Of a stretch of DNA of 64,000 bases, positions 3,792-6,804 are shown piece by piece (the first letter of the stretch is position 1; every line of letters starts with the position of its first letter). The position numbers were made by a program, and so were the translations under genes. This DNA is from Planctomycetales bacterium. GTDB lineage: Bacteria > Planctomycetota > Planctomycetia > Isosphaerales > Isosphaeraceae. The stretch lies in contig DAIDKV010000058.1 of the NCBI GenBank assembly GCA_027449865.1, positions 1 through 64,000 of the forward strand, in the 5' to 3' direction. The notes under the pieces are model-generated. The model ran no database searches. It worked only from the letters and a program-made list of their open reading frames with translations, and was not told where the DNA came from.

Positions 3792-3965
3792 CTGCGAGAG
3801 GATATCCGCCGGTTGGGTTGTCCGGGAAGGTGTGGCCGGGAGAAGGCCGGAGCGGATCGGCGTGGGGCGGAAAAAAGTTGAACCCGTGCGGCCCCGATGG
3901 TGCAGTTAGGTAATGAGGCGACCGCGAGGGAGGAGCCCCAAGCGATCGCCGAGGGAGACGGCCGG

Positions 3966-4871
3966 ATGATTAAGTCGCCACCCCGACCCACGGACAGGCA
4001 ACTTCTGGATAGCTACGTGCGGCGAGGCGACGCCTCGGCGTTTCAGGATCTGGTTCGCCGGCACGGTCCGGCGGTGCATCGGGTTTGCCTTGGCGTCTTG
4101 AAGGATGTCCATGAAGCTGAGGATGCCTTTCAGGCGACGTTCATGGTCCTGGCGCGTCGGGCTCCGGAGATCGGCGAGCCGGAGGCCCTCGGCGGATGGC
4201 TGCGTGGTGTGGCGCATCGAGTCTCGATTCGGGAACGTCGGCGCTCGGTCAAGCGACGGGCCGTTGAGAAGACGACCGATGGGATCGCCGCGATGGAGCC
4301 CGAGGCGCCCTCGCGACAGCCGGAGATCGAACTTCGGGAACTGGTCGGCGAGGAATTGAGCCGGCTGCCGGACGAGTACCGCCGTCCGATCCTGTTGTGT
4401 TACCTCGACGGTCTGACACACGAACAGGCGGCGAACCGGCTTGAATGGCCGGTCGGGACCGTGAAGGTGAGACTGGTCCGGGGTCGTCGGCTCCTTCGAG
4501 AGCGGCTCGACCGGCGCGGAGTCGCTCTGGGCGCGGCCTTGCTGGTACTCCTCGGCTCGGGCCGACGCGCTCACGCACGGACTGGAGGGCTGATCGAGGC
4601 GACCGTCCGGAAGGCCGCGATGGAGTCCGCCAGCCGTCGGTCCGCGATCGCCCGTAAATCTCCGGGCGTTTTCCAGGATGTTCCCGGGTCCGAACGCCTC
4701 GGACGACTCTTTCGATACCCCGGTCTCTGGGCCGCGGCGCTGATTCTGGCACTGGCCCTGGGCTTCTCTGGACCCGTCGCGCGTGTCCTGGCCGGTCCAC
4801 CCACGCCGGAAGTCGATCCACTCACCGTTCCGAAAAACCTGGCTGATGTTTTGACGGTTGAGTGCCGCTGA
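3966..4871 (+). CDS. ECF-type sigma-70 factor with C-terminal membrane extension
   Basis: The 301-residue protein carries sigma region 2 at about residues 10-85 ([42 protein letters not shown]). Region 4 lies at about 115-175 ([18 protein letters not shown], then [19 protein letters not shown], the helix-turn-helix). After it come two hydrophobic segments ([11 protein letters not shown] and [14 protein letters not shown]), so the sigma domain is probably tethered to the membrane. Planctomycete ECF factors often have such tails, which may replace a separate anti-sigma factor. I chose the ATG at 3966 because GAGGGAG lies just upstream and the homologous region begins there. No anti-sigma gene is adjacent. 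It is divergent from the lipoprotein/DUF1559 pair. Confidence 0.85.
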
Positions 4872-5199
4872 TGGTTTGTCAAGGAATCGATTTCAGATAT
4901 CAGACTTTGGATTCTACTCACCGTAGCGCCAAACCTGGCTGATGACTTGCTTCCGTTTCCTGGAAGCAGGTTGCCATTCCGACGGTGATGGGGCGAGTGG
5001 ATTTTCGGATCCACCTTGCTTGCTCCGTTCCTGGGATCGGCAGGGGATGTTCACGCCTTCCCTGCACGACCGTTCTTCGTCCGCGCCTTTACGCCAACTC
5101 GGTTGAGACCGGGTTTGGCCTGGGGTTTCTTTTTGATTCATCCGGATCTCCCCGGCCAACCCGGTCGTTCCGACCCTTCCCCTGCATGGAGAAGCATCG
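4872..5199. other. Intergenic region with partial direct repeat and hairpin
   Basis: This 328-bp stretch has no gene. Bases 4916-4944 repeat the end of the sigma gene (4821-4849) with 25 of 29 bases identical. An inverted repeat at 4948-4968 (TGCTTCC, 7-nt loop, GGAAGCA) could end the sigma transcript, although no T-run follows it. The rest should contain the promoter of the ferritin-like gene, but I cannot identify it. Confidence 0.45.
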
Positions 5200-5919
5200 A
5201 TGAATCTCTCTTTCGAGGAGTCGCCTGGAGGATTGTCGAGCCGGCTCGGCCGTCCGGAGATCTGCTCACACTCGGCTCCCGGGCGCCGATCTTTTCTGAA
5301 ACGCGGGGCCGCGGCGTTCGCCGCCGCGACGGCCGCGTTCGCAGGACGCGAGGCGCACGCCACAAATCCCAACTTTCTCCCGAGCCTCTATCCGAACGAG
5401 AATGTCCTGGAATTCCAGACGATCCAGGCCGATGAGCAGGCACACGTGAAGTTCCTGGTAAATGCTTTGGGGGCCAACGCCCGCCCCATGCCAACGTTCC
5501 AGAACCTGGAGATGAACAATCTCCAGCAGTTCGCCCAGGCTTCCCTGGTGTTCGAGAACACCGGTGTCGGAGCTTATCTCGGCGCAGTGGCTTACATCGA
5601 CAACGTGCCGTATCTCGTCGCCGCGGCCACCATCATGGATATCGAGGCCCGGCACGCCGGGTATCTCAATGTTCTGAATAATCGGAAGATGACCCTGAAT
5701 GTGATCGGTCAGACGCCCTCGTTCGAGACACCTCTGACCATTCAGCAGGTTGTCGATCTTGTTTCGCCTTACGTCGTCAGCCTCAACGGCGGACCGCCGC
5801 TGACGTTCTCGACCACCCCCTCGGCCGAGAACGACATCGCCATTCTGAACTTCGCACTCGCGCTCGAGTACCTCGAGATGACCTTTTACAACATCAACGT
5901 GCCGAAGTTCACGGGCTGA
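5200..5919 (+). CDS. Exported ferritin-like protein with permuted helix order
   Basis: The 239-residue product has a twin-arginine-like signal (GRRSFLKRG, hydrophobic Ala-rich stretch to about residue 54). A four-helix ferritin-like domain of the desiccation-related Ferritin_2 type follows. Likely di-metal ligands are all present: E79 and H82 (DEQAHVKFL), E119 (LVFENTGVGAY), E149 and H152 (MDIEARHAGYL), and E223 (ILNFALALEYLEMTFY). In the usual family order the LEYLE helix comes first; here it is the last helix and ends nine residues before the stop. Such proteins may bind iron or manganese or protect against oxidative stress, but function is unproven. It is followed 114 bp later by a PEP-CTERM gene on the same strand. 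Confidence 0.8.
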   Translation: MNLSFEESPGGLSSRLGRPEICSHSAPGRRSFLKRGAAAFAAATAAFAGREAHATNPNFLPSLYPNENVLEFQTIQADEQAHVKFLVNALGANARPMPTFQNLEMNNLQQFAQASLVFENTGVGAYLGAVAYIDNVPYLVAAATIMDIEARHAGYLNVLNNRKMTLNVIGQTPSFETPLTIQQVVDLVSPYVVSLNGGPPLTFSTTPSAENDIAILNFALALEYLEMTFYNINVPKFTG

Positions 5920-6033: not shown

Positions 6034-6804
6034 ATGATCCGCAGACTCTTGATCGTCGGCTGGCTTTCGGCCATCGCCGCCGCCGTGTCCCTGTCCGCGA
6101 CTTCCGCGCGGGCCCAGTCATCCGTTGACGAGGCTCAACTGGAGACTTTCCTTGGCCTAACTGCTCCGAGCGGCCTGAACTCCGGCGCCCTGACGGGGCT
6201 GGGAAATGGGCCTGTGACCGACGGCTCGGCCATTCTTCAGACCGTCGTGGTGGGGGCCGGCGGCGCGACCCTCACCTTCGAGGCCGACTTCCTCACCAAC
6301 TCCCCGCCGCCCGGCGCCAACCCGCTCGCCGCGCTCGATCCCTTCGCCTTCTACACTCAGCCGAACCTCACCGATTTCGCCGATAACTTCACCAATTATA
6401 GCGGGAACTCGCTCACCGGCCTGATCGCGGCTCCCTCGCAGACCGGCTTCGCCTACCAGACGGGTTATACCAGCTATTCGGTGAGCCTCTCCCAGGGCAC
6501 CTACAACCTGGGCTTCGGGATCGCCGATGTCTCGGGCAACCTCTACAATTCGGCGCTCCTGATTTCCGACCTCTCCCTTTCCGCCGGGAGCCTCAAGAAT
6601 GGATCGTTCGGAAGCGGAGATTTCTCCGGGTGGTCGACGATCGGAAACACGAGCGTCGTCACATCGGATTTCGGAATCGACCCGCCGGTTGGGACTTACC
6701 AGGCCCTGATCTCAACGGCGAGCGTTCCCGAGCCCTCGGCGTTCGTTCTGATGATGGTCGGCGGCCTGGGAGCCTACGCGATCCGACGTCAACGCACGGC
6801 ATGA
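6034..6804 (+). CDS. PEP-CTERM sorting-signal surface protein
   Basis: The 256-residue exported protein has an N-terminal signal peptide (LIVGWLSAIAAAVSLSATSARA) and a C-terminal PEP-CTERM signal: VPEPSAF, a short hydrophobic helix, then the basic end RRQRTA. The middle is Gly/Ser/Asn-rich and beta-type, without a recognisable enzyme fold (NGSFGSGDFSGWSTIG resembles a carbohydrate-binding-like segment). PEP-CTERM proteins are processed by exosortase and delivered to the surface or extracellular matrix; no exosortase gene lies in this window. AAGGAGAGACGACC before the ATG is a good ribosome-binding site. The ferritin-like gene lies just upstream and a strong hairpin lies just downstream. Confidence 0.88.
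   Translation: MIRRLLIVGWLSAIAAAVSLSATSARAQSSVDEAQLETFLGLTAPSGLNSGALTGLGNGPVTDGSAILQTVVVGAGGATLTFEADFLTNSPPPGANPLAALDPFAFYTQPNLTDFADNFTNYSGNSLTGLIAAPSQTGFAYQTGYTSYSVSLSQGTYNLGFGIADVSGNLYNSALLISDLSLSAGSLKNGSFGSGDFSGWSTIGNTSVVTSDFGIDPPVGTYQALISTASVPEPSAFVLMMVGGLGAYAIRRQRTA

Follow-up and report, generated by a model that had tools for sequence, protein, structure and literature searches.

Four-helix bundles of the ferritin-like type rank with the most ancient and most widely used metal folds, and family models take the order of their helices as fixed. One gene in the window, i.e. the whole 64,000-nt stretch of DNA analyzed here, part of contig 58 of an 8.48-Mb planctomycete draft genome in 278 contigs, raises the question of whether nature has changed this order and kept the metal site. 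The initial annotation of this gene (positions 5200–5919, plus strand) held that helix A, which opens the canonical domain, stands last in the product, after B, C, and D, and that all six expected metal ligands are retained. The open reading frame and the positions of the proposed ligands are as described there: the gene runs from ATG to TGA, stop codon included, and its translation has 239 aa.

The protein opens with a Tat-like signal region (aa 1–54; 5200–5361), in which a twin arginine, R29–R30, is followed by a hydrophobic stretch. Generic Tat models match this region only below their cut-offs, and both arginines are unchanged across 27 aligned homologues. Helix limits were inferred from the alignment and are approximate for B, C, and D. 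Helix B (aa 66–89; 5395–5466), where the match to PF13668 (Ferritin_2) proceeds from profile position 33 onward, carries E79 (5434–5436) and H82 (5443–5445), helix C (aa 105–130; 5512–5589) carries the ligand E119 (5554–5556) and Y126, and helix D (aa 137–161; 5608–5682) the ligands E149 (5644–5646) and H152 (5653–5655). These are followed by a tail helix, alpha-5 (aa 180–195, TIQQVVDLVSPYVVSL; 5737–5784), a linker (aa 196–210; 5785–5829), and the relocated C-terminal helix A (aa 211–238; 5830–5913), with the ligand E223 (5866–5868), an invariant E226, and Y230; all these features lie on the plus strand, and the last helix in the translation reads SAENDIAILNFALALEYLEMTFYNINVPKFTG. Alpha-5 serves as a connector here and is C-terminal in canonical proteins. 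It aligns with the tail of the Ramazzottius varieornatus metabolite phosphatase RvFeMP-1 (RvY_06210, PDB 8KCE) in the PDB sequence alignment, and canonical proteins align to the profile of the permuted family only to about position 174, i.e. the end of this helix. Since alpha-5 sits between D and A, the full order is B-C-D-alpha5-A, which extends the anatomy first proposed.

Comparison with PF13668 finds the domain in two pieces in swapped order. The protein scores 103.4 bits with hmmscan (curated cut-off 24.7), and the match falls into two stretches, the best of which pairs aa 53–159 with profile positions 33–135 of 138. The second, recovered by a profile search of the genome at 5830–5913 (about aa 211–238), corresponds to profile positions 1–28 (E = 1.2e-4). 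The two together span nearly the whole domain, with 33–135 preceding 1–28 here and in 40 of 40 homologues. We therefore file the protein as a permuted sister branch rather than as a canonical PF13668 member. When aa 208–239 are placed before helix B in silico, the rotated sequence gives a single continuous match to positions 1–135 with 114.9 bits. Similarly, in a structure search the natural sequence finds RvFeMP-1, whose chains are the solved relatives retrieved by sequence, only weakly (E = 0.11), while the rotated one finds it over the whole domain (E = 8.3e-4). Both the match to profile positions 1–28 and the alignment to alpha-1 of RvFeMP-1 identify the last helix as the homologue of the canonical first helix. 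AlphaFold2 run on three near-identical sequences (the window protein, L003, and L004) returned an unusable model with a pLDDT of 36.6, and scans of viral contigs yielded no relatives suited to such a prediction.

The reverse comparison gives the mirror image. An HMM built from the permuted family covers permuted proteins as one domain (3–218) and splits nearly all canonical proteins, which match with helix A (approximately 187–212) first and then with B-C-D-tail (approximately 40–174); the canonical set came from Thermus, Haladaptatus, Methylobacterium, Mesorhizobium, Miltoncostaea, Acidisarcina, Sphingomonas, and the planctomycete genome G340. Pfam places ten such proteins in canonical order, each with one match running from near profile position 1 to 134–137. 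One protein (L082:221-1066) gives a single match to the permuted HMM (7–173) with no separate A piece, and is canonical by Pfam (profile 1–134). The 40 permuted proteins, from three families, each show one domain match, with the moved helix present only once, and all 40 have the arrangement Tat signal-B-C-D-tail-A. The order B-C-D-A is thus borne out by the Pfam pieces, the in silico rotation, the reciprocal HMM order, the alignment to RvFeMP-1, and the survey of homologues.

A wrong start could have hidden an upstream helix A, which the initial annotation had named as a way for its reading to fail. The preceding stop is separated from the ATG by only 21 in-frame codons, the host genome has no PF13668 match besides ORF 5200–5919, and in all 27 aligned homologues a Tat-like RR motif comes first, with helix B directly after it; an overlooked helix is thereby ruled out. 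The recurrence of the order in 40 homologues likewise rules out a frameshift or an assembly error. That the protein is canonical and has an additional A-like helix at its end was also considered and rejected, as no permuted protein has an N-terminal A match.

The gene has at least 40 permuted copies in three families of one planctomycete class, Planctomycetia. By our count from the tables, 26 of 45 genomes of Isosphaeraceae, the family to which the window belongs, carry an intact permuted copy, and a class-wide draw of 397 genomes added 12 more genomes from two further families. Beyond the class, two phylum-wide draws yielded no permuted copies, and the only clear carrier of Ferritin_2 among them is G340, which has a canonical tandem pair. 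The other Pfam matches in these draws are mostly weak (20–37 bits) and roughly colinear, which rejects them as permutants, and they look like other ferritin-like proteins of the rubrerythrin or bacterioferritin type. Other phyla were surveyed through plasmid records, none of which covered 80% of the query; Aquisphaera gave the sole near match. Degraded permuted remnants with in-frame stops or short frames occur in two genomes (G026 C137 84560-84667 and G020 C120 2663-2913).

A maximum-likelihood tree was built from the B-C-D-tail part of 58 proteins, and a single branch, supported at 100/99, sets the 40 permuted rows apart. Canonical copies from two Isosphaeraceae genomes, one of which (G040) has only the canonical form and the other (G011) both, fall outside this clade. 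With a single permuted clade, one event suffices, and the tree suggests that the circular permutation was a single ancient event. Canonical order is seen in archaea and several bacterial phyla, and the PF13668 family reaches plants, fungi, and tardigrades (PMC11616004), so the permuted order is most simply read as the derived state.

The permuted gene is under strong purifying selection. Specifically, dN/dS of the mature part is 0.12–0.13 against two congeners (87–88% identical), which rules out a pseudogene, and helix A shows zero replacements among the congeners compared. Separately, the DNA of the last 40 codons (5800–5919, the linker end plus helix A) is nearly identical in three congeners, where pS falls from 0.26–0.29 over the mature part to 0.045 across the final 33 codons; synonymous divergence at this 3' end is below what purifying selection on the protein alone would lead one to expect. 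A 37-nt imperfect direct repeat (81%) with the core AAACCTGGCTGATG is also present at 4817–4853, in the end of the upstream sigma factor gene, and at 4913–4949, in the intergenic region between that gene and the ferritin-like gene. The genome has no other copy of this core, which is also absent from the close relatives L003 and L004.

The claim that all six ligands are kept holds up across homologues, with E79, H82, E119, E149, H152, and E223 unchanged in the 27 aligned at first and then in all 40. Together with Y230, they are invariant in an alignment of the 40 permuted and 17 canonical proteins, in which Y126 is present in 39/40 and 17/17 and E226 in 40/40 and 16/17, respectively. The protein thus has the PF13668 ligand set of E (A), ExxH (B), E (C), and ExxH (D). 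Spacing from the C ligand to the D ligand is 30–33 residues in permuted and 30–34 in canonical proteins, with a mode of 30 in both. When chain positions of the PDB alignment are read as RvFeMP-1 residue numbers minus three, which is our reading, E223 corresponds to Glu51, E79 to Glu90, H82 to His93, E119 to Glu132, E149 to Asp162, and G122 to Asp135. The RvFeMP-1 structure, at 1.05 Å, has Glu51, Glu90, His93, and Asp162 as ligands of M1 and Glu90, Glu132, Asp135, and Asp162 as ligands of M2, and Asp135 is needed for activity (PMC11616004). DRB0118 has Gly at the Asp135 position and is still a phosphatase, for which an alpha-1 glutamate has been suggested as compensating (PMC11616004); E226 could fill that role here. 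On these sequence comparisons, the protein is very probably a conserved natural circular permutant with a retained metal site.

Two neighbors of the gene are conserved, both on the plus strand. Upstream, an ECF sigma-70 factor gene (3897–4871; PF08281/PF04542) encodes a product with a hydrophobic C-terminal segment, and downstream lies a gene for a protein with a PEP-CTERM sorting signal (6034–6804; PF07589, 24.6 bits, above cut-off). By our count from BLAST, a same-strand sigma homologue lies upstream of the permuted gene in 15 Isosphaeraceae loci and a PEP-CTERM homologue adjoins the permuted gene in 12 Isosphaeraceae genomes, several contigs being too short to tell. The Aquisphaera locus has divergent sigma and anti-sigma genes, and a gene annotated as PEP-CTERM follows the permuted gene.

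A different partner recurs elsewhere. In the planctomycete family f101, a DUF4394 protein is encoded directly upstream in 6 of 7 permuted loci (three confirmed by Pfam). On a Haladaptatus plasmid DUF4394 is fused to a canonical Ferritin_2 domain (WP_266080846.1). The canonical Ferritin_2 genes of G011 and G040 each have a DUF4394 gene no more than about 250 bp away. In the window genome, DUF4394 gives no match. In both archaea and planctomycetes, DUF4394 is thus found repeatedly as a fusion partner or neighbor of Ferritin_2 in either helix order (L117:1834-3360, from Haladaptatus; L089:1878-4169; G011 C1 6953400-6955203; G040 C1 208658-210476), a putative functional link. Because both branches keep this partner, it argues for a related function of permuted and canonical proteins.

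What, then, does the protein do? Like the characterized PF13668 proteins, it is probably a dinuclear-metal enzyme working outside the cytoplasm. Our best single guess at its activity, a tentative one, is that of a metal-dependent phosphatase on small metabolites; redox or peroxide chemistry is about as likely. The adjoining PEP-CTERM and sigma genes give no pointer to phosphatase activity. The protein may instead be an envelope peroxidase or catalase-like enzyme, a ferroxidase, or a metal sensor under ECF sigma control, a serious possibility if somewhat short of an even chance, which competes with the activity assigned and leaves the permutation untouched. Its conserved sigma and PEP-CTERM envelope-protein neighbors speak for such a job, and E/ExxH/E/ExxH ligands are typical of redox ferritin-like proteins. 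Moreover, the window genome has no match to PF00210 (ferritin, bacterioferritin, and Dps), for which the same search was positive in 14 of 14 control genomes. Against this stands that the characterized PF13668 proteins we found are phosphatases, with metal-dependent activity demonstrated for RvFeMP-1, RvFeMP-2, and DRB0118 (PMC11616004).

Whatever the activity, the rotated chain is predicted to rebuild the canonical bundle of a Tat-exported dinuclear-metal protein. The topology of the canonical ferritin bundle is up-down-down-up. Helix D would end opposite the start of A, so the two must be bridged by a connector of some 50 residues that includes alpha-5, and the protein has one. H152 and E223 are 66–74 residues apart in all 40 permuted homologues, leaving room for alpha-5 and a crossover. 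A tether of about 70 residues from the D ligand could also let helix A reach a neighboring subunit and complete the partner's bundle, in which case the metal site would form only in a dimer or oligomer, and the canonical proteins RvFeMP-1 and DRB0118 are indeed dimers (PMC11616004). We consider such a swap unlikely, as the connector includes alpha-5 and is conserved in length, and no sequence feature demands an exchange between subunits.

As for its origin, an ancestral A-B-C-D-alpha5 domain would have been opened in the A-B loop, where the new termini lie, and the old ends would have been joined through alpha-5 and a linker of about 15 residues to give Tat signal-B-C-D-alpha5-A. We infer that two canonical genes standing in tandem were fused and that the outer portions were then lost. 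Canonical genes stand in tandem at most plasmid loci viewed as well as in G340, so this classical fusion-and-trimming route is available; no A-B-C-D-A intermediate was seen among the proteins examined. Adjacent same-strand pairs of canonical Ferritin_2 genes occur at seven loci from several phyla (L082, L084, L085, L086, L087, L088, and L106), and their members are strongly divergent, which suggests a heteromeric or paired function. The same tandem pairs offer a route to a less orderly outcome, a fragment in which the first A is gone and a spare one remains and which would now be a degenerate protein or scaffold with no working site, and the degraded remnants in two relatives would suit it. 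However, no ligand varies among the 40 homologues from three families, dN/dS is low, and the permuted clade is old and widespread within its class, all of which makes this very improbable. That the permuted order is an assembly or start-site artefact of a contig from a fragmented draft is practically inconceivable, and indeed refuted, given that dozens of independent genomes show the same order, one example being the complete plasmid pOJF2_1 of Aquisphaera giovannonii.

The locus thus encodes a common fold that nature appears to have permuted, apparently a single time; what is new is the helix order, the fold itself being already known. A natural and functionally conserved permutant would mean that fold and site tolerate the moving of helix A, and the coexistence of both gene forms in Isosphaeraceae makes this a traceable case of how circular permutation arises. 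It also calls for caution, because profile searches can report permuted proteins as fragments, and it provides a testable stress-type gene set comprising an ECF sigma factor, a putatively exported permuted ferritin-like protein, and a PEP-CTERM protein. We found no published natural circular permutant of a ferritin-like protein in the open-access literature, and we lean toward regarding this one as the first described in the superfamily: a monophyletic planctomycete family with a B-C-D-A bundle, two long crossovers (B-C and D-A), termini at the A-B hairpin, and an intact dinuclear site.

Among known systems, the closest are the PF13668 proteins PCC13-62, DRB0118, Rds1, and RvFeMP-1, which have in common with the permuted form the helices, the invariant E and ExxH ligands, the spacing from C to D ligand, a secretory signal, and the tail helix alpha-5. 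They differ in order, A-B-C-D-alpha5 as opposed to B-C-D-alpha5-A, and the permuted form has no A-B loop and an added conserved connector from D to A. RvFeMP-1, for example, aligns with the permuted protein at five ligands, but it is unpermuted, has Asp135 where the permuted protein, like DRB0118, has Gly (Gly122), and contains an Ig-like domain that the permuted protein lacks. The Haladaptatus protein resembles the permuted genes of f101 in its link to DUF4394, but is fused to it and canonical in order. Nearest to home, the canonical Ferritin_2 proteins of G011 and G040 belong to the same bacterial family and share the domain, whereas they keep the canonical order, have a long A-B insert, and branch outside the permuted clade.
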